From Symmachiella dynata (lineage in GTDB: Bacteria; Planctomycetota; Planctomycetia; Planctomycetales; Planctomycetaceae), in the NCBI RefSeq assembly GCF_007747995.1, contig NZ_CP036276.1:812001-876000 (forward strand): a stretch of DNA of 64,000 nt, read 5' to 3'. The number at the start of each line of letters is the position of its first letter. Position 1 is the first letter of the stretch. The notes beneath the pieces were generated by a model, which worked only from the letters and a program-made list of their open reading frames with translations, was not told where the DNA came from and did not search any database. A program made the translations under genes and the position numbers. Shown here in pieces: positions 2 to 61,246 of the stretch.

Positions 2-742
2 CGGTTTCGCTACAAAAACAACGACATGGACGACCTGCGGCAACAATTGGATGCCGCTGCCGGCGCGCGGTATCGCATGATCGCCACCGACGGCGTCTTC
101 TCAATGGATGGTAAAATTGCCGACCTCAAGTCCATCTGCGACCTGGCCGATCAATCCGAGGCACTGGTGATGGTCGACGATTCTCACGCCGTCGGTTTTG
201 TCGGTGACGGCGGGCGGGGGACGCATGAAGCGTGCGGCGTGATGGACCGCGTCGACGTGATCACCGGCACGCTCGGCAAAGCGCTGGGCGGCGCATCAGG
301 CGGATTCACCTCGGGGCGCAAGGAAATCATTGACTGGTTGCGACAACGCTCGCGGCCCTATTTGTTCTCCAACTCCGTCGCCCCAGTGATCGTCGCCACC
401 TCGCTCAAAGTGCTGGAACTATTGCAATCGGGCGATGAGTTACGAACGCGGTTGCGCGAGAACAGCCAATTCTTCCGCGACGAAATGCAGCGACTCGGTT
501 TCGACCTCGTGCCGGGCAGCCATCCCATCATTCCCGTGATGCTGGGCGATGCCGTCTTGGCGCAAAACATGGCGGCGCAATTGATGAACGAAGGGGTCTA
601 CGTGATCGGGTTTTCCTTCCCGGTCGTCCCCCAAGGCAAAGCCCGCATCCGCACCCAAATGTCCGCCGCACATACCCGCGAAGACCTGGAAAAAGCAGTC
701 ACCGCCTTCGAAAAAGTCGGCCGGCAGTTGGGGGTGATTTGA
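2..742 (+). CDS. kbl: 2-amino-3-ketobutyrate CoA ligase (glycine C-acetyltransferase), 5' truncated by window edge
   Basis: PLP enzyme of the alpha-oxoamine synthase family that splits 2-amino-3-ketobutyrate with CoA into glycine and acetyl-CoA, the second step of threonine catabolism. The frame is open to the left edge (first full codon at 2), so only about the C-terminal 246 residues are present. Visible family features are [11 protein letters not shown] with the cofactor-binding Asp/His and [14 protein letters not shown], which holds the Lys that forms the Schiff base, followed by the C-terminal small domain. The next gene downstream is threonine dehydrogenase, the enzyme that makes its substrate, which settles Kbl over other oxoamine synthases such as BioF. 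The start codon lies outside the window. Confidence 0.95.
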
Positions 743-758
743 GCGCCGTGTGATTTTT

Positions 759-842
759 CACCACGGAGGCACGGAGTAGATAATTTGTAACTCGTTCCCA
801 AGCTCCGCTTGGGAACGCACTTTCGCGAAGCTCCGCTTTGCT
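759..842. repeat. Dispersed repeat: CCACGGAG motif plus GTTCCCAA palindrome (half copy)
   Basis: The kbl-tdh gap holds a CACGGAG-type motif (about 760-776) followed by a palindrome GTTCCCAAGCTC/CGCTTGGGAAC (794-815) and a GCGAAGCTCCGCTTTGC tail. The same palindrome and tail recur at 29360, 59559 and 61104; the CCACGGAG motif recurs near 1930, 17475 and 61040. Confidence 0.7.
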
Positions 843-902
843 GATTCACGTAGAGCAGGCTGTAACAGCCCCCGTAAAATTAACACCAGGATAGAACCCC
901 CC

Positions 903-1925
903 ATGAAAGCCCTCGTCAAAGCCAAGTCGGAACCGGGTCTGTGGATGCAGGATGTGCCGGTTCCCGAGTATGGGCCGAACGACCTGTTGATCCGCATCAC
1001 GCACACCGCCATTTGCGGGACCGATCTGCATATCTATCATTGGGACGATTGGGCGCAAAAGACCGTTCCGGTGCCGATGGTCACCGGGCATGAATATTGT
1101 GGCGTGATCGAAGCGGTCGGGGATCTCGTTGCCGACTTCAAACCGGGGGACCGCGTCTCCGGCGAAGGGCATATCACCTGCCGGCATTGTCGCAACTGCC
1201 GCGCCGGGCGACGGCATCTGTGCCGCAACACGCAAGGCGTCGGTGTGGATCGCCCCGGTTGTTTCGGCGAGTTCTTTTCGCTACCGGCGACCAACGGATT
1301 CAAAATTCCCGACGACATTCCTTCAGAAATCGCCACGATCCTCGACCCCTTCGGCAATGCCACGCACACCGCTCTGTCGCAAGACATGGTGGGCGAAGAC
1401 GCATTGATCACCGGAGCCGGCCCCATCGGTGTCATGGCCGCTGCCATCTGCCGGCATGTCGGCGCCCGACACGTCGTCGTCACCGACATCAACGAATACC
1501 GTCTCGACTTAGCCAAACGTCTCGGCGCAACCTACACACTCAATCCGCAAGAAAAGTCATTGCAAGAGGCAATGCAAGATTTGGGCATGCACGAGGGCTT
1601 CGACGTCGGCCTGGAAATGTCGGGCAGCCCGGTGGCGTTTCAATCAATGTTAGAAACCATGAACCACGGCGGCAGCGTCGCGTTGTTGGGCATCTTCCCC
1701 AAACCGATCGTCACCGATTGGAGCCAAGTGATCTTCAAGGGCCTGAAGCTGAAGGGCATCTACGGCCGTGAGATGTACGAAACGTGGTACAAGATGACCA
1801 CCATGCTACAAAGCGGCCTAGACATCACCGGCATCATCACCCACCGTTTCCAGGTCGACGATTACGAACTCGGTTTCCAAGCAATGGAGGAAGGCCGTTC
1901 AGGGAAGGTGATATTGGAGTGGTGA
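903..1925 (+). CDS. tdh: L-threonine 3-dehydrogenase
   Basis: Zinc-dependent medium-chain dehydrogenase/reductase oxidising L-threonine to 2-amino-3-ketobutyrate with NAD+. At 340 residues it has the usual length. The catalytic-zinc site is seen as Cys in [15 protein letters not shown] (about residue 38) and [12 protein letters not shown]; the structural-zinc loop is [15 protein letters not shown] with four cysteines; the Rossmann fold begins at [11 protein letters not shown]. These are the diagnostic Tdh features (E. coli Tdh is 341 residues). It follows kbl by 160 bp in the same direction; the gap carries a dispersed repeat, so co-transcription is likely but not shown. Confidence 0.95.
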
Positions 1926-1929
1926 GGGT

Positions 1930-1999
1930 TCACCACGGAGCCACGGGGGACACGGAGACAAATGTAGGTTGCGTCGCGACGCACCTTTCTGTGTAGGGC
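1930..1999. repeat. Dispersed repeats: CCACGGAG motif and GCGTCGCGACGCACC palindrome
   Basis: A CACCACGGAG-type motif (1931-1957) is followed by TGTAGGTTGCGTCGCGACGC and ACCTTTCTGTGTAGG (1963-1997), a perfect inner palindrome TGCGTCGCGACGCA-like core. Almost the same block occurs at 9593-9625 downstream of another gene. Confidence 0.65.
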
Positions 2000-2088
2000 G
2001 AACGGTTTTCGGCACGAAATAAACGACGCACATAGTTGTCGACAGCCTCCCGCAAATCTATCTCGTAAAAACGTGCGGTATCGTTCAT
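1930..2088 (-). CDS. Possible small protein, divergent from the ankyrin gene
   Basis: A 52-codon minus-strand ORF starts at an ATG at 2088 that shares a CATG palindrome with the plus-strand ATG at 2087. A good Shine-Dalgarno (GGAGGG, 2093-2098 on the minus strand) sits 4 nt upstream of it, better than anything in front of the plus-strand gene. The first 35 residues (MNDTARFYEIDLREAVDNY onward) look like normal helical protein, but the last part is translated from the dispersed palindrome at 1963-1997. It may therefore be a gene fragment cut by repeat insertion. I do not recognise a family. Confidence 0.2.
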   Translation of the reverse strand: MNDTARFYEIDLREAVDNYVRRLFRAENRSPYTERCVATQPTFVSVSPVAPW

Positions 2089-2824
2089 GAGACCCTCCAT
2101 GGATGCTCGACCAAAATTCAACGAGTTGTGTCCGTTTTTTTACGGTTCGCTACGTACCCAGTTGCGCTACCCTCAGTTGGCCGAATTGTTTTGCAATCAC
2201 GATTGGAAGGTTGTTCAAGTCGAGCCTCTGACAATGTGGCCGCCCAATTATGAAGTATTCAATCAGTGGGCCAACCTGCTGATTAGTGACGAAAACCCAA
2301 TCATGTTGACAGGCCAAATTACTTCGATAGAAGTTGTTCTGCCGATGATTGAGGCCGTATTTGCTGGTACCGACGTCGAATACAGCTATGAATCGTCGCT
2401 GATTCATGACAATCTTGTCCATGAGGTTAGCTGTAAGAATACTTCTGCCATCAAGCGACTTTTGGCCTCAGGAGTGAACCTCAATCGGCGGGGGCGTTAT
2501 TCATTGTCAGCAATCGCTTGTGCGGCTGAAACAGATGAAACGGGCGAAATCATCCGACTTTTGGTGACTGCTGGCGCAGACGTGAACCTGCCGGATGCTC
2601 GTGGAACGACACCACTTTTTGTAGCCGTAGATGTCGCCATAGACGGGGCAATCCAAACAAATAAGCCAACATTTGATTGGTCGGCCGTCGCTGTGTTGCT
2701 GGAATCGGGCGCCGATCCGTACCTTAAAGACGGCCGGGGAAAGACCGTGTTCGATGTCGCTCGCGCCTACGGCCCGTATGCTGATACATCATTTCGCGCG
2801 TTCATGGAAACGCAAGGTCACTGA
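2087..2824 (+). CDS. Ankyrin-repeat protein
   Basis: Protein of about 245 residues. The N-terminal 110 residues are not recognised. From about residue 115 there are ankyrin-type repeats: AIKRLLASGVNLNRRGRYSL, EIIRLLVTAGADVNLPDARG followed by TTPLFVAVD, and VAVLLESGADPYLKDGRGKT. Such repeats mediate protein-protein contacts; no catalytic domain is visible and there is no signal peptide or membrane segment, so a cytoplasmic location is inferred. The start is uncertain: ATG at 2087 or 2099 are both in frame and neither has a clear ribosome-binding site. It converges with the minus-strand membrane gene, ending 9 bp from it. Confidence 0.75.
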   Translation: MRPSMDARPKFNELCPFFYGSLRTQLRYPQLAELFCNHDWKVVQVEPLTMWPPNYEVFNQWANLLISDENPIMLTGQITSIEVVLPMIEAVFAGTDVEYSYESSLIHDNLVHEVSCKNTSAIKRLLASGVNLNRRGRYSLSAIACAAETDETGEIIRLLVTAGADVNLPDARGTTPLFVAVDVAIDGAIQTNKPTFDWSAVAVLLESGADPYLKDGRGKTVFDVARAYGPYADTSFRAFMETQGH

Positions 2825-2832
2825 CTCCTCCG

Positions 2833-4143
2833 TCACCGCGACAACCAAGAAACCGCCTTACCCTCCAAAGCCGGTAATTGCGGGTCACGGACAAGCCGAT
2901 AAGTGAAGGCGCCCAGTAGATCGCCGCGCTGAACGCTGTGGCATTCCAGGCATTGGTTGATTGCCACGATCGGGCCGAGCATGCGGATGTCGTTGTGGTC
3001 TTGGTGCACGACCAATGTCTCGCCTGCGCGCAGTCGTGCCAGCGCAGCCGTCTCGAATTCATCGAGCGGCCGCGTCGGTGCTGTGCTCAATTCATCCATG
3101 CGGGGCAGGTTTTTCGATTCGTACACCCGCGGCGTGTCGTGTTTTAGCAGGCTGACCAGTTCCAGTTTCTCGATCAACCACCGCACCGACTTGTTGCTGT
3201 TGGTGAGTGGCTCGGGAAATTTGCGAAACGCGTGCGGTTGAAACCCGGTCACACGGAGGATTTGTTTTTCCGGAGGTTTGCCATTCCGTAAACTCTCGAC
3301 ATAGCCGAACCCAATCGGATCGGCAAAATCGGCCATGCCTTGCAGGTGGAATTGATCCAACTCCGACTTCTGGATCGGTAGATCGGGGGGATTGTTTTTG
3401 GCACGCGCGAATTGTTCGCGCGTTGGTTCTGATTTAGGCGATGGCTTGGGGATCGGAATCGGCACTGTTTCAGGGATTTCGATGGATTTCCTCGTTGCAG
3501 GTAAGCGTGGTACACGCATACGGCCGGCTCCATCCGCAGAAATGAATTCATGGACGAAACCCTGGTGGGCATCATTCAACGCAGGGCGATGCAAGGATGG
3601 TAGAGACCAATGCCGCTGCGCGAAATCGTTGTTACCCCAATTTCTTTCTTCGCCAACCAATTTGGATTCGATCTCGCTTAAATAAGTCGTGGGGAAAATC
3701 GCCGGCGAATCCTCATCATGATCCGTGTTTTCGATGTTCGGAAGGCGATTCTCGTAGGCTAGACGTTCCACCAACGAAACCTGTGGATACTCTGCACGCA
3801 GTGCCAAGCGTTCCCGGTACTCGGGAATGAACATCACCGCTGTGATTCCATAAGCGGCCGCCGTCGCTAGGAGTCCGAAGACCAATGTTCGTTTTGCTTG
3901 CCATTGCATGGAAGCTGCAATGATGGTGACGAAAAACAGCAGCAGCCAATTCCAGAACAACACCGGCGACCACGTAACTACCAATGTCCAAAAGAACGTC
4001 AGGAGCCCCCCGAACAGCAAATATCCGAAGGCCGCCCCGGCCCAATGAATACGCGCCGAAGCAATACAAAATGCAAGCAGGAGTGCCGAACAGACCAAGG
4101 CCCAACAGAGCCCCACCGGGATACTCGCCAGCACAGGAGTCAT
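2833..4143 (-). CDS. Membrane protein with C-terminal CxxCH motif
   Basis: 436-residue protein of unknown function. The first about 140 residues contain four to five hydrophobic segments (for example LVCSALLLAFCIASA, AFGYLLFGGLLTFFWTLVV, WNWLLLFFVTIIAAS, LVFGLLATAAAYGITAV). A long hydrophilic part follows with a Pro/Lys-rich linker (about 225-255). Near residue 400, in AINQCLECHSVQRGDLLGAF, there is a CxxCH heme c attachment motif. If the soluble part is periplasmic this would be a membrane-anchored monoheme cytochrome-like protein, but the rest does not look like a classical cytochrome c. It could instead be a CxxCH found in a sensor-type domain. No functionally informative neighbours. Confidence 0.7.
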   Translation of the reverse strand: MTPVLASIPVGLCWALVCSALLLAFCIASARIHWAGAAFGYLLFGGLLTFFWTLVVTWSPVLFWNWLLLFFVTIIAASMQWQAKRTLVFGLLATAAAYGITAVMFIPEYRERLALRAEYPQVSLVERLAYENRLPNIENTDHDEDSPAIFPTTYLSEIESKLVGEERNWGNNDFAQRHWSLPSLHRPALNDAHQGFVHEFISADGAGRMRVPRLPATRKSIEIPETVPIPIPKPSPKSEPTREQFARAKNNPPDLPIQKSELDQFHLQGMADFADPIGFGYVESLRNGKPPEKQILRVTGFQPHAFRKFPEPLTNSNKSVRWLIEKLELVSLLKHDTPRVYESKNLPRMDELSTAPTRPLDEFETAALARLRAGETLVVHQDHNDIRMLGPIVAINQCLECHSVQRGDLLGAFTYRLVRDPQLPALEGKAVSWLSR

Positions 4144-4498
4144 GAGCGTCTCTCCTCAAATCTGCGACTGTGGATTTCTTAGCAGAAACATCAACCGGTA
4201 TTGTAACAACCTGCTGCTTTCCCCTGCGAATAAACGTTGAAAACGTCGTCGAATTCATCAAAAATCTGGCCGTCATCAGTAGATCCTTTATCCAACGCCC
4301 TGGGGGCGGACTTTGTCCGTCCCCAGCCACCCATAAACCGCCACCCCGCCGCGGCCATTGAAGCAACCCCACCAAACCGGTATTCTCTCCCAAGACCGCC
4401 TAGGAACGGCCCCGGGAACGCCGGATCCCAATTCCTACAGCCTAAAGTCTATAGCTTAAAACCTTCACCACACCGCATATATCAAGGAAACTCCAACC
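4144..4498. other. Intergenic region between divergent genes
   Basis: Divergent promoter region of the CxxCH membrane protein and fabI; no gene seen. Bases about 4428-4465 (TTCCTACAGCCTAAAGTCTA and on) are a remnant of the right arm of the heptamer repeat family described at 5310-5634. No convincing -35/-10 pair identified. Confidence 0.5.
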
Positions 4499-5309: not shown

Positions 5310-5634
5310 GGAGTGGCCGGTGGCGAGTGGCCGGTGGCCAGAAGGAGTAGGCGGTAGACAGTAGGCAGTAGGCAGAGAAAAAATGGTGGGGGTGAGCGGT
5401 GTTTGGCTTTCGATGGCCGGATGATGTTTGCCTGTCAGCCCTATGGTCTTCGGACTACAGTCTACGGCCTCACGAAGTGGCCGGTGGCGAGTGGCCGGTG
5501 GCCAGGAAGAGTAGACAGTAGACAGAGAAGGGCTGGTGGGGGGCGGCGTTTGGGTATCGATCGCCCAATGACGTGCGGCTGCCAACCCTATGGTCTACAG
5601 CCTACAGCCTACGGCCTAACGAAGTGGCGAGTGG
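5310..5634. repeat. Two tandem MITE-like units built of 7-bp repeats in inverted arrangement
   Basis: Unit 1 is 5310-5470, unit 2 is 5471-5617, and a partial third left end runs to 5634. Each unit begins with (A/G)GTGGCC heptamers, continues with AGTAGGC/AGTAGAC heptamers, has a G-rich middle (GGTGGGGG), and ends with CCTATGGTCTACAGCCTACA and on, the inverse complement of the left heptamers. The two units share both ends and differ mostly in the middle. Related elements lie at 37111-37221, 41014-41141, and (with a gene inside) 46141-46659. No ORF is supported here. Confidence 0.8.
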
Positions 5635-9592: not shown

Positions 9593-9660
9593 GTAGGGTG
9601 CGTCGCGACGCACCTTTCTACATAGGACAACAGTTTACTCTACATAGGACAACAGTTTAC
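9593..9660. repeat. GCGTCGCGACGCACC palindrome plus exact 22-bp tandem duplication
   Basis: Positions 9593-9625 repeat the block at 1963-1997. Overlapping its right end, TCTACATAGGACAACAGTTTAC occurs twice in tandem without mismatch (9617-9638 and 9639-9660). Confidence 0.75.
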
Positions 9661-13866: not shown

Positions 13867-14649
13867 ATGAATCCTATTCGACACAAAAAATCTTCGTTTA
13901 TGTTAGCCGCCATCGCTGTGATTGCCTTTGGAACCTATGCGACCGGGCAAGTCCGTGTCGATGGGGAGCGCGGCGTTGGGGGAGCTTCCACCATTCATAA
14001 CCATTTCAACTACGGCCACCACTACTATGGCGGAGGATATGGCCTGGGCTATGGCGGGTACGGGGGCTATGGCGGGTACGGGGGCTATGGCGGATACGGG
14101 GGAGTGACGGCTGCTGGTTCCACCGGTTATGGTGTCGGTCAAGCGGCACAGGGACTCGGCCAAGCCCGGCTTGATACCGCTCAGTCGGCGCAGATCTACG
14201 CGAAAACGGCTCATCAGTCGATGCAAAATCACAACTATGCCGTCAACAGTTACTACGCCAACAAAGATATCCACGACAAATACATGAAGGAACACGCCGG
14301 ACCGAAAATCACTCAAGAAGAGATTGATAAGCTCGCCAAGGACGCCCAACCGGGACGCCTGGATCCTGCACAGTATGACTCGTCCAGCAGCTTGATCCAT
14401 TGGCCGCCGCTGTTGCGGGACAAAGCCTTTACCAAGTCGCGGAACAAAATCGATCACCTGTTCAATGCACGCACCCCGGACAACTCGGGTGTCGATTCCG
14501 ACAGCTACGGCGAGATCCAAAACGCTTGCAAAGAAATGCAAGCCACGCTGCGGGGCATGATCAAGAGCCTGCAACCGGTGACCTACGTCGCCGCCGATCA
14601 CTTCATCAAAAGCTTGGCCTACGAAGCAGAATTCCCCCCGAAGAAATAA
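13867..14649 (+). CDS. Exported protein with GYGG repeat tract
   Basis: About 260 residues. The start at ATG 13867 gives a clean signal peptide: KKSSFMLAAIAVIAFGTYATGQ, cleavage likely after the TGQ/ATG region. A low-complexity Gly/Tyr tract follows (GYGLGYGG then repeated GYGGYGG, DNA 14048-14101 with near-exact 15-18 bp repeats), and then a His/Asn-rich and helical C-terminal part (KTAHQSMQNHNYAVNSYYAN, later a helical RNKIDHLFNAR). Function unknown; likely periplasmic or surface-associated. An upstream in-frame GTG at 13807 would put 20 residues in front of the signal peptide and is rejected. A strong hairpin terminator follows 27 bp after the stop. Confidence 0.75.
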   Translation: MNPIRHKKSSFMLAAIAVIAFGTYATGQVRVDGERGVGGASTIHNHFNYGHHYYGGGYGLGYGGYGGYGGYGGYGGYGGVTAAGSTGYGVGQAAQGLGQARLDTAQSAQIYAKTAHQSMQNHNYAVNSYYANKDIHDKYMKEHAGPKITQEEIDKLAKDAQPGRLDPAQYDSSSSLIHWPPLLRDKAFTKSRNKIDHLFNARTPDNSGVDSDSYGEIQNACKEMQATLRGMIKSLQPVTYVAADHFIKSLAYEAEFPPKK

Positions 14650-37110: not shown

Positions 37111-37221
37111 AAGTGGCCGGTGGCCGGTGGCCAGAAAAAGGGGGGGGACTCAATCGGTATGTACAACCAAACGGCCAGCCGTTGCCAACCCTACAGTCTA
37201 AGGTCTACAGCCTATTGCCTA
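37111..37221. repeat. Heptamer MITE-like element between the two permease genes
   Basis: Left arm GTGGCCGGTGGCCGGTGGCC (37113-37132), G run, right arm CCCTACAGTCTAAGGTCTACAGCC (split at 37189-37212), the same ends as the units at 5310-5617. It sits inside the metal ABC operon, between ORFs of opposite halves of the same transporter. Confidence 0.75.
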
Positions 37222-39845: not shown

Positions 39846-39952
39846 CTTTTACCTGTCGTTTCAAACCCCGCTGACGCGTCCTACTGAACTGATCTGCACG
39901 TTTCGAGAGCAAGCGCAACCGGGTCTTGAAACTGGTTCAAAGACGCGTTGTT

Positions 39953-40002
39953 GCTATGCGTCAATCAGCGCATCGACGCTATGCGTCAATCAATGCATCG
40001 AC
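39953..40002. repeat. 25-bp tandem duplication overlapping the ftsY stop
   Basis: GCTATGCGTCAATCAGCGCA...(39953-39977) and its neighbour 39978-40002 differ at two positions. The stop codon of ftsY (39979-39981, read on the minus strand) falls in the second copy, so the duplicated copy sits just outside the gene. Confidence 0.75.
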
Positions 40003-40920
40003 GAATGCATCGGGGGCGAAGAGTTGCAGGTCGTCGATTTGTTCGCCGACGCCGATGTACTTGACCGGCAGGCCCATTTCGCGGCGGATGGCGACGACGA
40101 CGCCGCCTTTGGCGGTCCCGTCCAACTTGGCCAACACGATCCCCGTGCACTTGACCGCTTCGGAGAAATTCTTGGCTTGGCTGATGCCGTTTTGGCCGGT
40201 CGTTGCATCCAGGACCAACAATACTTCGTGCGGGCCTTCGGGGATGACTTTTTGAATTACCCGCTCGACTTTGGACAGCTCGTTCATCAAGTTTTTCTGC
40301 GTCTGCAAGCGGCCGGCGGTGTCGATGATCACGACATCGATCCCCTTTTCCACCGCAGCGGAGCAACCGGCGTGGGCCACGGCAGCCGGGTCGGTGCCGT
40401 CCGGTTTGGTGACAATCTCGCAGTTCAGTCGCTCGCTCCACATCGTCAATTGTTCGACGGCAGCGGCGCGAAACGTGTCCCCGGCGGCCAGCAGGACGGT
40501 CTTACCTTGTTTTTGTAGAAAATTGGCCAGTTTAGCAATCGAGGTCGTTTTCCCCACGCCGTTGACGCCGGCGACGAGTATCACCGTTGTCCCTTCGGCA
40601 GTCAAATTGAGCGGCGAGAGGGGATCTTCGGGATCCCACACAACATCGTCTTCGCCAGTCAGCAGGCCTTTGAGCGTGTCTTTGACCGTCAACCAGAGGG
40701 CATCGACATCGACGGTGCGGCCCAGGTGTTGTTTCCGCAATTCGTCGGTGATTGCCTGTGCAGCGACGACACCCATGTCGGTGGAAATCAGACGGGCATG
40801 AAACTGTTCGAGCTGCTCCTCGCCCAAAATCTCGCCCGCTTTGAACAAGTCGCGGACGTCGGTCGTCAGCAGGGCCTTGGTTTTGGCCAACCCTTGTTTG
40901 AATTTGTCAAAAAATCCCAT
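39979..40920 (-). CDS. ftsY: Signal recognition particle receptor FtsY
   Basis: SRP receptor GTPase for co-translational membrane targeting. 313 residues: N domain (1-110), G domain with G1 [15 protein letters not shown] (118-132), [19 protein letters not shown]3 DTAGR, TKLDG-type [10 protein letters not shown] and the closing [20 protein letters not shown]. It lacks the acidic N-terminal A domain of E. coli FtsY, as in many bacteria. ATG 40920 ([15 protein letters not shown]) follows GAGGG; the longer frame upstream reads heptamer repeat sequence and is rejected. Confidence 0.95.
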
Positions 40921-41013: not shown

Positions 41014-41141
<128 letters not shown>

Positions 41142-45024: not shown

Positions 45025-46140
45025 ATGAAAATTGTCAAAGTCGAAGTCATTCCGCTGATTGGTGGAACTGTGGATGGGGGTTGGCCGCAGGGGCATGAGC
45101 CGGAAGAGGACCTCAATACGCTGATCGAGGTGCAGACCGACGAGGGGATCACGGGCGTCGGAAGTTGTTTCACCTCCGGAAGTTTGGTTCAGGGGGCGAT
45201 GAAACTACTCTGGCCGTTGCTCGACGGGGAGTCGGCCGTGGAGCCGGAACGGGTGACCGAGACCTTGCGGGAAGCGACATTTTGGCAAGGACGGGGCGGG
45301 GCGGTCGAGCACACGATTTCGGGACTGGACATCGCCCTGTGGGACATCATGGGCAAAGCCTGCGGGCAACCGGTCTCGCGGCTGTTAGGCGGCAACTACC
45401 GCACGCGGATCAAGCCATACGGTTCGATGCTATTTGACGAGCCGGATGTGCTCCGCGACCAATTGGAGTCGACCGTGGCACGCGGATTCCAGGCCATCAA
45501 ACTCGGCTGGCGACCGTTCGGGCGTCGCAATCGTAAATTTGACGAATTGCTGATCCGTACCGCCCGTGAGACTGTCGGCGAAAAAGTGGAGCTCATGGTC
45601 GATGCGGGGGGGAGCGAGCAATTTTGGCCGCACGGTCTGAACTGGGCCCGCGAAACGGCCAAGATGTTGGCCGACTATGACATCGTCTGGTTCGAGGAAC
45701 CGTTGCCGCCGGACGATCTGGAAGGGCACATCGAACTAACGCGAACCTCCCCCGTGCCGATTGCCGGCGGCGAGGTCTTAACGCGCCGGCAATCCTTCAT
45801 GCCGTGGCTCGAGCGGCGAGCGGTCGACATTATTCAACCCGATTCGACCAAAAACGGCGGATTGAGCGAAACCCGCCGAATCGCCTGGTGCGCCTACGAT
45901 CACAACATCCAGGTCGTCACGCACGGCTGGAACACCGCCATCGGCTTGGCAGCAGACCTACAAATGGCCGCCGCCCTGCCCGTCGCCCGCTACGTCGAAT
46001 ACCTCACACCGTGCGCCTACCTCGAAGAACTGACCGTCGAGCCCTTCACGCTCGATGAGGAAGGCTACCTGGAGATCCCGCAAGGACCGGGTCTGGGAGT
46101 GGAGTTGGACCACGAGCGTTTGGCGCGATTTCGCTCGTAA
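45025..46140 (+). CDS. Mandelate racemase / muconate lactonizing enzyme superfamily protein
   Basis: 371-residue enolase-superfamily enzyme (sugar-acid dehydratase or racemase). N-terminal capping domain, then the barrel: AIKLGWRPFG with a Lys of the catalytic base site (about 161), metal ligands Asp (LMVDAGGS), Glu (VWFEEPLPPDD) and Glu (IAGGEVLTRR), and THGWNTAIGLAAD with the His of mandelate-racemase-subgroup members. Exact substrate unknown; the context (no sugar operon) does not narrow it. Its stop touches the inverted-repeat cassette that follows. Confidence 0.88.
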   Translation: MKIVKVEVIPLIGGTVDGGWPQGHEPEEDLNTLIEVQTDEGITGVGSCFTSGSLVQGAMKLLWPLLDGESAVEPERVTETLREATFWQGRGGAVEHTISGLDIALWDIMGKACGQPVSRLLGGNYRTRIKPYGSMLFDEPDVLRDQLESTVARGFQAIKLGWRPFGRRNRKFDELLIRTARETVGEKVELMVDAGGSEQFWPHGLNWARETAKMLADYDIVWFEEPLPPDDLEGHIELTRTSPVPIAGGEVLTRRQSFMPWLERRAVDIIQPDSTKNGGLSETRRIAWCAYDHNIQVVTHGWNTAIGLAADLQMAAALPVARYVEYLTPCAYLEELTVEPFTLDEEGYLEIPQGPGLGVELDHERLARFRS

Positions 46141-46659
46141 GGCGTGAGGCTTGAGGGGACAGGCTTGAGGAGAGTTGTTGAGGCTAGTCGATACTGTCGG
46201 TGGCGGGTTACTGCATGTAAGATGTGGGATTGAGGTTTTCGAGATTCCCGATTGTAAGAGAGTCACATCATGCGCGACCATCGAAAACTAAGGGCCTTTG
46301 AATTGGCTGATGCATTGGCGATACTGGTGTATCGAGTGACGGTCAATTTCCCCAGCAACGAGCAGTTTGGGTTGACCAGCCAGATTCGCCGCGCGGCGGT
46401 TTCAGTCGCATCGAATATTGTGGAAGGCTCTGCTCGCAATTCCCAAGCAGACTATGTGAGATTCCTTGACATGTCATTTGCCTCGGCGCGCGAGCTTCAG
46501 TATCAACTCTCTTTAGCCTATCGTCTTGATTATCTATCGCACGCCAACTACGAATCAGTCGAAAAGTCCACCGAAGAGACACTCAAAGTCCTAGCAGGTC
46601 TCCTCCGATCATTGCGCAAATAACAAAACCCTCAAGCCTGTCTCCTCAAGCCTCAAGCC
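46141..46659. mobile_element. Inverted-repeat cassette carrying a four-helix-bundle gene
   Basis: 31-bp ends: 46141-46171 (GGCGTGAGGCTTGAGGGGAC and on) and 46629-46659, whose reverse complement matches at 28 of 31 positions. The ends are themselves 7-bp-phased (GAGGCTT GAGGGGA CAGGCTT GAGGAGA). The left end starts at the stop codon of the enolase-superfamily gene and the right end lies 10 bp before ribF. I see no clear target-site duplication. One gene (46270-46623) lies inside. Structure is like a MITE with a passenger gene; mobility is inference. Confidence 0.6.
46270..46623 (+). CDS. Four-helix-bundle protein (S23/IVP family)
   Basis: 117 residues matching the 'four helix bundle protein' family, first known from open frames within 23S rRNA intervening sequences: [60 protein letters not shown] and [20 protein letters not shown], with a [12 protein letters not shown] end. 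The conserved Q-I-R-R-A-x-x-S-x-x-x-N-I-x-E-G core is intact. Biochemical function unknown; a diversity-generating-retroelement accessory (Avd) has the same fold. Here it stands outside any rRNA, enclosed by inverted heptamer repeats. Confidence 0.9.
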
Positions 46660-46669
46660 CCCTGCAGCC

Positions 46670-47626
46670 ATGCAACTCCAACACGGTTTCCAAAATCCCG
46701 ATAGCTACCGCCATGGATTTGTTTCCATTGGCAACTTTGATGGTGTGCATTGTGGGCATCGGGGGATGATTTCGGCTTTGGTGGAGAAGGCGCGGGGTGG
46801 GGGGGTGCCTTCGGTTGTGTTTACGTTTGATCCGCATCCAATCACGTTGTTGAGGCCTGGGTCGACGCCGCCGCCGCTCAGTACTGTGCAGCGTAAGGCG
46901 CAGTTGATTGAAGAGTTGGGGGTCGATTGCATGATCGTTTACCCCACGGATCAGGAATTGTTGGATCTCACGCCGCGGGAGTTCTTTGAGCGAATCATTC
47001 TCCAGGAGATCGCCGCTAGTGGAATGGTGGAGGGGCCGAACTTTTTTTTCGGACGGGACCGTGCGGGGGATATTCACAAGTTACACGAGTTCTGCGACGA
47101 AGCGGGACTCGATCTGAAAATTGTGCAGCCGGTCGGGCTGGGCGGTCGTATGGTCTCTTCCACAGCGATTCGCGGCTTGATCGCTACGGGACATGTCTCT
47201 AAAGCGGCGGAATTATTGGGGCATCGGTATCGCATTCAAGGGACGGTTTCTCGGGGGGCGATGCGCGGCGCGCAACTTGGTTTTCCGACCGCGAATTTGG
47301 AAGCGATTCCCACGGTCATCCCCTGTGATGGGGTTTATGCGGCGATCGGCATCTTGGGAGATCAACGCTTGCCGGCGGCGGTCAATGTCGGGCCGAACCC
47401 CACATTCGGCGAAATGCAACGCAAGTTAGAGGTGCACTTGATCGACTTTTCCGGCGACTTGTATGGACAATCGTTGGGGGTGGAATTTGTGGAACGGTTG
47501 CGGGCCACGACTTCCTTTGCAGGCATCGATCCACTAAAAGAGCAATTGGCGCTCGATATCGCACAGGCCCGTACATTGGCCACGGCAGCGATACAGGAAT
47601 CGGCGCGCCCCTCCGGCGAAGTCTAA
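46670..47626 (+). CDS. ribF: Bifunctional riboflavin kinase / FMN adenylyltransferase
   Basis: Makes FMN and FAD from riboflavin. 318 residues: N-terminal nucleotidyltransferase with VSIGNFDGVHCGHRGMI (18-34; HxGH-type), VFTFDPHPITLL, PNFFFGRDRAGDI and SSTAIRGLIATG, then C-terminal kinase (from about 180: HRYRIQGTVSRGAMRGAQLG with FPTANL, VYAA, NVGPNPTFG). A gene for DHH phosphoesterase follows with TAATG junction. FMN it makes is needed by NqrB/NqrC and ApbE further on. Confidence 0.95.
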   Translation: MQLQHGFQNPDSYRHGFVSIGNFDGVHCGHRGMISALVEKARGGGVPSVVFTFDPHPITLLRPGSTPPPLSTVQRKAQLIEELGVDCMIVYPTDQELLDLTPREFFERIILQEIAASGMVEGPNFFFGRDRAGDIHKLHEFCDEAGLDLKIVQPVGLGGRMVSSTAIRGLIATGHVSKAAELLGHRYRIQGTVSRGAMRGAQLGFPTANLEAIPTVIPCDGVYAAIGILGDQRLPAAVNVGPNPTFGEMQRKLEVHLIDFSGDLYGQSLGVEFVERLRATTSFAGIDPLKEQLALDIAQARTLATAAIQESARPSGEV

Positions 47627-61057: not shown

Positions 61058-61246
61058 GAAGGCTGTAGGCTTTAGACTGTAGGCCTTAGTGTCAAGCTTA
61101 CTTGTTCCCAATCTCTGTTTGGGAACCCTCAATCCCGAAGCTTCGCTTCGGTCCGCGCCCGGTAGACAGCCGATGGAACCTTGGAAAGGAAAGCGAAGCG
61201 GAGCTTCGCTACAATGCGTTCCCAAACAGAGTTTGGGAACGAGTGA
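61058..61246. repeat. Heptamer remnant plus composite GTTCCCAA repeat, right of apbE
   Basis: 61059-61088 is AGGCTGTAGGCTTTAGACTG and on (heptamer family right arm). 61104-61246 is a full copy of the composite repeat at 59559-59696, matching it in order (palindrome, CCGAAGCTTCGCTTCGG, GCGAAGCGGAGCTTCGC, palindrome). Confidence 0.8.

Follow-up and report, generated by a model that had tools for sequence, protein, structure and literature searches.

An S23 gene between inverted heptamer arrays as a putative, very small mobile DNA element in Symmachiella dynata, with counterparts across bacterial phyla

An S23/IVP gene of Symmachiella dynata is enclosed, between two protein-coding genes, by inverted arrays of 7-bp-phased repeats, and the same arrangement recurs at S23 loci of other planctomycetes, of many further phyla and of cyanobacterial plasmids. 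The finding is real and general. In the window, by which we mean the whole 64,000-nucleotide stretch analysed (contig NZ_CP036276.1, positions 812,001 to 876,000), the unit is probably one copy of a very small putative mobile DNA element, about 470 bp long, consisting of an S23 gene between inverted arrays of 7-bp (elsewhere also 8-bp) repeats. S23/IVP proteins, annotated as 'four helix bundle protein' or '23S rRNA-intervening sequence protein', are a widespread family of unknown function. If the reading is correct, it would join the function of S23, the origin of the rRNA intervening sequences and the spread of dispersed heptamers between phyla, three puzzles that could then be tested with a single protein and the repeat array belonging to it; a mobility protein this small (about 120 residues) and outside the known transposase folds would mean new chemistry. 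That conserved operons are split with both neighbours left in place is relevant to annotation and to operon evolution.

The cassette in the window

When 46630-46660 is reverse-complemented, 28 of its 31 positions are identical to those of 46140-46170, and repeat finding returned the corresponding inverted pair 46141-46170/46630-46659 (30 nt, 93%). The open reading frame in between (46270-46623) lies above the curated cut-offs of both profiles of the S23/IVP family, PF05635 (E 3e-33, 114.6 bits, cut-off 33.8) and TIGR02436 (E 8e-33, 112.9 bits, cut-off 24), and is hence a member; by sequence, its relatives with known structure are 2gsc and 2rld. Alignment and profile matches agree with the preliminary description of this DNA, which had placed an S23/IVP-like gene between 31-bp inverted ends. 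Its further statement that the unit fills the whole intergenic gap also stands, as the left end begins inside the TAA stop codon (46138-46140) of the upstream gene and the right end, reaching to 46659, is 10 bp from the ribF ATG at 46670. Likewise, no transposase is visible: the sole gene that the ends enclose has a Pfam match to PF05635 and a weak one to bAvd, with no known transposase domain and no RAYT.

The match between the ends is beyond chance. The flank score, obtained by aligning the left flank locally to the reverse-complemented right flank, is 24 at the window gene, against a maximum of 13 among 148 random 315-bp intervals of the window. Folded as a single DNA strand with DNA parameters, the element forms a terminal stem (z -3.6).

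Table 1. Features of the cassette and of the gene-less arrays in the window; arms were mapped by a scan with four arm types
Feature	Position	Strand	Remarks
Upstream gene, MR_MLE/enolase superfamily	45025..46140	+	PF13378, PF02746; stop TAA touches left end
Left end, heptamer-phased arm AGGCKTG AGGCTTG AGGGGAC AGGCTTG AGG	46140..46170	+	
S23/IVP four-helix-bundle gene, 117 aa	46270..46623	+	PF05635, TIGR02436
Right end, sequence of the left arm inverted, 6 bp 3' of the S23 stop	46630..46659	-	
Downstream gene ribF (FAD synthetase/riboflavin kinase), 10 bp from right end	46670..47626	+	PF06574, PF01687
Gene-less element(s) (5310-5634 of the preliminary description)	5312..5618	.	AGTGGCC and AGTAGGC arms (+) 5312-5373, 5476-5503; AGGCTGT arm (-) 5595-5618
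Gene-less inverted element (37111-37221 of the preliminary description)	37112..37213	.	AGTGGCC arm (+) 37112-37134; AGGCTGT arm (-) 37190-37213
One-sided AGTGGCC/AGTAGGC array (41014-41141 of the preliminary description)	41023..41112	+	no inverted partner found
Solo AGGCTGT arm	61060..61084	+	
Solo AGGCTGT-type arm	4434..4455	-	

S23 genes and inverted arrays across bacteria

All three PF05635 genes of this genome (G000) lie, when read by eye, between inverted heptad-type repeats, with ends of the AGGCTTG type in the window, of the AGTGGCC type at L001 and of a degenerate AAGG-rich type at L003, where the automatic flank score is just 10. PF05635 is present in 39 of the 59 genomes searched (G000 included), with 117 matches, 3 of them in G000; we examined 72 of these loci, taking the best per genome plus mostly the next-highest scores. 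At a threshold of 12, set after inspecting a first null distribution, 55 of the 72 planctomycete loci have matching ends, and 44 score at least 14. The controls reached these levels in 2 and 0 of 148 random 315-bp window intervals and in 2 and 1 of 150 cases with flanks swapped between loci. The search of relatives for the gene with flanking inverted heptamers, which the preliminary description had suggested, gave a positive answer.

Beyond the planctomycetes, we searched species genomes with a profile of six S23 proteins, using patterns for W-type S23 in the scan. Among the best 80 of 585 matches listed, 68 loci score at least 12 and 63 at least 14, against 1 and 0 of 148 intervals shifted by 1.4 kb in the same loci and 5 and 1 of 200 swapped flanks. 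These 80 best loci span Acidobacteria, Bacteroidota, Chloroflexi, Clostridia, Gemmatimonadetes, Planctomycetes, Proteobacteria, Spirochaetes, Verrucomicrobia, candidate phyla and others. S23 was also found in 31 of 72,556 plasmid records, mostly cyanobacterial, and 12 of the 12 cyanobacterial plasmid loci fetched have ends, with scores of 14 to 31 (three pairs are near-identical); one S23 query against 50,697 phage records gave no match at E 1e-5.

The planctomycete and cross-phylum sets share at least two contigs (L118/L006 and L133/L059), which were removed from the joint set and from the wobble and arm-versus-protein tests. In the joint set, 121 of 150 loci carry ends and 29 fall below the threshold. 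The period is 7 in 102 of the end-bearing loci, 8 in 16 and ambiguous in 3. Arm identity reaches 0.485 (planctomycete) and 0.531 (cross-phylum) at lag 7 and 0.463 and 0.490 at lag 14, with 0.24-0.29 at the remaining lags and 0.26-0.29 at those lags in the planctomycete set alone. The repeat sequence varies from locus to locus, both arms of one locus match each other, and the median length from arm to arm is 468 bp. Ends can be very long, those of L122 having 122 identical bases of AGTTCTC repeats. At L009 (G042), the inverted match extends over 187 columns, 163 of them identical, and includes non-repetitive DNA, which hints that one end was copied onto the other, or at fold-back synthesis.

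Ends in relation to the S23 protein

Ordered by growing protein distance, mean arm similarity falls from 0.71 (3 pairs) to 0.43, 0.31 and 0.24 and then stays at 0.21-0.24. Taken over all pairs, arm similarity and protein distance correlate weakly (Spearman -0.09, a value that 4 of 300 permutations equalled in strength), so that the likeness of arms is limited to close S23 relatives. AGGATT-type arms, for instance, are common to L150 from Bacteroidota and to L161 and L176 from Betaproteobacteria.

Every one of the 121 end-bearing loci has Q34, E48 and E71 (numbered along the matched part), 120 of them keep S41 and N45, and 117 keep R37. The same six residues are also retained in a planctomycete clade of which 6 of 6 members (L024, with a flank score of 7, L026, L027, L029, L067 and L072) are without ends above the threshold, so that they do not discriminate between end-bearing and end-less S23. 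This end-less clade has perhaps been domesticated.

The idea that the period is set by protein clade was rejected, as with 150 loci period 8 requires several origins. On the S23 tree of these loci, period 8 takes 10 changes, against a shuffled mean of 15.3 (0 of 300 shuffles as low); period 8 is clustered, not clade-fixed. Seven period-8 loci of planctomycetes group with the end-less L074 in a single clade, and lag 8 is also the highest at L021 and L047, which belong to other clades. The AU test for the seven period-8 loci as one clade gave p 0.097.

Insertion sites

Several end-flanked S23 units interrupt chromosomal gene pairs that are usually adjacent in bacteria, namely pheS/pheT (L129, Granulicella), carA/carB (L157, Lysobacteraceae), accB/accC (L159, Dyella, with accB identified from sequence), nuoC/nuoD (L143, Pseudaminobacter) and guaB/guaA (L136, Thiobacillus). 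Because such pairs usually stand side by side, the units between them read as insertions. At L140, on a contig of a Chryseobacterium gleum metagenome-assembled genome, an S23 gene with AGTGATG-type ends lies inside one long frame (88-3243), apparently within another protein gene.

The sites show a co-directional bias. Among 103 loci with genes called on both sides, S23 is co-directional with both neighbours in 51 (+,+) and reversed to both in 19 (-,-), the two other arrangements accounting for 17 and 16, where the neighbour genes are the longest open reading frames rather than annotated genes in 111 of the 121 end-bearing loci. Where the upstream gene is co-directional, the left arm starts at most 12 bp from its stop codon in 55 of 70 loci, a raw count in which 9 of the 55 close distances lie at the -12 limit, the frame having entered the arm and been cut.

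On cyanobacterial plasmids, CRISPR-Cas operons hold end-flanked S23 elements at cas6/cas4 and cas10/cmr3 junctions; the loci are L183 (Anabaena sp. 90), L191 (Pseudanabaena) and L190 (Picosynechococcus). A figure legend in a CRISPR survey spells out '23S rRNA IVP' among its names (PMC10910872). The linkage between S23 and CRISPR may come from insertion rather than from function.

Empty sites and turnover between strains

Two Nostoc strains with related plasmid operons (L192, L193 and L194) differ in the presence of elements. The S23 element of L192 and L193 separates two genes that stand next to each other in L194, where the empty site reads TTTAGGTTCTA/GGTTATGC; L194 in turn carries a different S23 element one gene further along, at a site that is empty in L192 and L193. 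A gene-less insert in L193, about 270 bp long and with AGGAGTC heptads like those of the S23 element there, is missing from L192 and L194, and the gene preceding this insert is annotated with 357 nt in L193 and 321 nt in L192. Of the three Nostoc sites, one shows a possible target-site duplication, TTCTA, and the other two no clear one.

In G001, the nearest relative of G000 and a member of the same genus, an S23 gene occupies the same place as that of the window. The upstream gene is identical at 95% of DNA positions, the S23 gene at 64% in both DNA and protein, and the ends are AGGCTTTAGGCTGTAG where the window has AGGCTTGAGG, still inverted and 7-bp-phased; gene and both ends therefore differ together. 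Among the observations that would speak against it, the preliminary description had named unrelated flanks around such a gene at the corresponding locus of distant relatives. The G001 locus goes partly in that direction, with a diverged gene and different ends, yet those ends keep their inverted, 7-bp-phased form. The L001/L008 pair of the two genomes is conserved, ends included. A gene-less locus of G000 (L213, 534000-535000) and its G001 counterpart (L225) have the same AGTGGCC arms around entirely different DNA, and arm-bounded slots thus seem able to exchange their content. A clean empty site for L003 was sought in G001 and G002 and none was found, G002 having other sequence of similar length; for L211, G001 gave no matching flank.

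Could the unit instead act at the level of RNA? The ends would then pair in the operon transcript, RNase III would cut the stem, and S23 would bind it and so process or regulate the mRNA, with the stem maintained by selection and the unit no longer mobile. The co-directional bias (51 against 19) is what such a role would predict, the window ends do fold into a terminal stem, if with DNA parameters, and the Coxiella intervening sequence is described as cut by RNase III (PMC4990558). The bias can, however, also be explained by read-through expression and selection, and the mismatches between ends have no sense-strand G-U bias (75 versus 87, p 0.39). Empty sites and exchange between strains, and gene-less copies located away from S23 genes, likewise argue against it, and we consider an RNA-level element unlikely.

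Gene-less arrays

The preliminary description had likened three gene-less stretches of the window to the cassette. Two of them, 5310-5634 and 37111-37221, indeed hold inverted pairs, and the third, 41014-41141, is one-sided. The two pairs differ in type from the ends of the S23 unit and have AGTGGCC/AGTAGGC on the left and AGGCTGT on the right in place of AGGCTTG (Table 1).

Elsewhere in the genome, the AGGCTTG arm itself is dispersed. It has 74 matches in G000 and 58 in G001, as counted from 40 scored candidates per genome with both ends matching the same sites; in G002, a member of the genus without S23, no AGGCTTG arm was found and only the two flanking genes match. An inward-facing partner lies within 500 bp at 9 of 20 window-type sites, which form 3 pairs of one type and 6 of mixed type; the other 11 sites lack such a partner. 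The pattern RGTGGCCRGTGGCCRGTGG has 35 matches in G000, 12 in G001 and 0 in 57 other genomes, counts that include S23 loci and overlapping matches and that compare with 3 and 2 in G000 and G001 when the pattern is read backwards. AGTGGCC arrays thus occur in 2 of 59 genomes, exactly those with an examined AGTGGCC-ended S23 (L001 in G000, L008 in G001). A three-unit GAGAGTC pattern has matches in 7 of the 59 genomes, none of them at a PF05635 place (the control gave 2 matches, both in G015). Among the examined loci, S23 ends with GAGTC phasing occur in four genomes, G015 (L040), G023 (L050), G024 (L048) and G025 (L042), and all four are among those seven; the other three, G003 (where the ends of L011 are mostly GAGAGTT), G008 and G014, have GAGAGTC arrays and no examined S23 of that type. 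Gene-less arrays track the S23 end type, strictly for AGTGGCC and loosely for GAGAGTC.

We fetched 20 gene-less copies of both types and read 18 by eye: 6 are inverted pairs of one type, 5 are mixed and 7 are one-sided. The six same-type pairs, with a short spacer, are L209, L211, L213, L220, L221 and L222, and several gene-less copies end on the inside in GCC[AG]GA, like the gene-bearing L048 and L001. At L091 (G000 1327023-1330569), three composite gene-less elements follow one another, with four heptad types in ordered nests. The division into autonomous copies, with gene and ends, and non-autonomous copies, with ends only, that the preliminary description had proposed is supported by the recurrence of the unit in 121 of 150 loci, by the empty sites and by the gene-less copies; it does not extend to the gene-less heptamers of the window, which differ from those of its S23 unit.

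Arrays of this kind might conceivably be spread by other machinery, with S23 genes merely falling into them or becoming trapped. Solo and mixed-type arrays are common in G000, arm-bounded slots may hold other sequence (L213/L225), and G049 has AGTTTTC arrays at 15 matches with no S23 match. For the last case, gene loss would be an explanation, as G057, of the same genus, has a single S23 gene with an internal stop codon and AGTTTTC-type ends; the G049 site that matches the L022 element retains a piece of an arm, so that it may have arisen by deletion instead of being empty from the outset. A passenger role for S23 is nevertheless quite improbable in view of an association seen in 121 of 150 loci and in only about 1% of random or shifted intervals, of the match between the two arms of a locus, and of the similar arms of close S23 relatives such as L150 with L161 and L176.

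Proposed mechanism and relation to known systems

We infer that S23 is the mobility protein of these elements. It would recognise the repeats as DNA, either double-stranded or as folded single strands at replication forks, and would move its own cassette and, in trans, the ends-only copies, perhaps assisted by host replication or repair enzymes; we know of no nuclease motif in S23. DNA rather than RNA is favoured by the lack of a wobble bias together with four genomes that have end-flanked S23 and no match to the reverse transcriptase profile PF00078. Copying from end to end would keep the two arrays alike as their sequence drifts.

A close parallel is with REP/REPIN sequences and their RAYT (TnpA-REP) transposases, where inverted repeats at the gene, scattered pairs of ends only and a repeat type of its own for each gene are likewise found; this is likeness, not homology. 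RAYT is an HUH Y1 protein, whereas S23 is a four-helix bundle, and arrays of heptads stand in place of REP palindromes. The S23 system may accordingly be pictured as working in a REP/RAYT-like way with an unrelated protein.

Terminal inverted repeats surround the S23 open reading frame of the window, as they do in a 23S rRNA intervening sequence. That of Coxiella is described as a 428-nt unit with an S23 frame and terminal inverted repeats forming a 28-bp stem, and with three tandem GACAGAT heptamers before the frame whose number varies between strains (PMC4990558). Unlike it, the present units occupy gaps between protein genes, are spread over many phyla and have ends-only relatives; the window unit is located between MR_MLE and ribF genes, not in 23S rRNA, and no rRNA came up when 20 of the 80 cross-phylum loci were scanned against Rfam. 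An S23-bearing intervening sequence would be the same kind of element landed in rRNA, and it is probably one case of the S23 system. In the literature searched, with most subscription journals outside its coverage, no paper ties S23 genes to heptad ends outside rRNA, in keeping with the preliminary description, according to which such a linkage is not known to be described. As an element class it would be new, the rRNA intervening sequence being the sole partly described member.

The TAACTGA repeats of Beggiatoaceae, cyanobacteria and Bacteroidetes form tandem arrays of 7-bp units that lie mostly between genes, and are thought to have spread horizontally, though 'no mechanism is evident' (MacGregor 2015, PMC4679880). 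They differ from the present arrays in that they were reported as direct repeats, for which a regulatory role was suggested, and the main text of that article has the terms 'S23', 'intervening' and 'helix bundle' 0 times (PMC4679880). The reverse complement of TAACTGA, TCAGTTA, is the unit type at L107. Dispersed heptamer repeats are also known from cyanobacteria as STRR. More tentatively than for the window unit, we suggest that S23/IVP proteins, as small four-helix bundles with no known nuclease fold, might be the mobility proteins of minimal heptad- or octad-ended DNA elements throughout bacteria, from which the rRNA intervening sequences and many dispersed heptamers (TAACTGA, perhaps STRR) would derive, and from which Avd would have been recruited.

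Avd and S23 belong to a common fold family, and the window protein weakly matches the Avd profiles (bAvd and DivGenRetAVD), with 34.1 bits for NF033474 against a cut-off of 80. A retroelement, in which S23 would act as an Avd relative and assist, in trans, a reverse transcriptase that copies the transcript and inserts it, is very improbable: an RVT_1 gene of some kind is present in 54 of 59 genomes, but end-flanked S23 occurs with no match to PF00078 in G014, G040, G042 (99% complete, 2 contigs) and G043, a negative that covers this profile and that more diverged or since-lost reverse transcriptases could escape, and the two RVT_1 matches of G000 lie at distances of about 154 kb and 4 Mb to the S23 gene of the window. 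With these four genomes, and with MR_MLE and ribF as neighbours, the retroelement or rRNA setting raised in the preliminary description is not seen for the window unit.

Other repeats in the window

Apart from the heptamer arrays, the window has tandem repeats at 9617-9660 (a 22-bp unit, twice), 39953-40003 (a 25-bp unit, twice) and 14046-14102 (an 18-bp unit, about three times). The sequence at 39849-39938 (about 90 bp) has dozens of matches in G001 and G002 at about 74-88% identity, among 40 scored candidates per genome, and is perhaps the N-terminus of a dispersed protein family, unrelated to the heptads.
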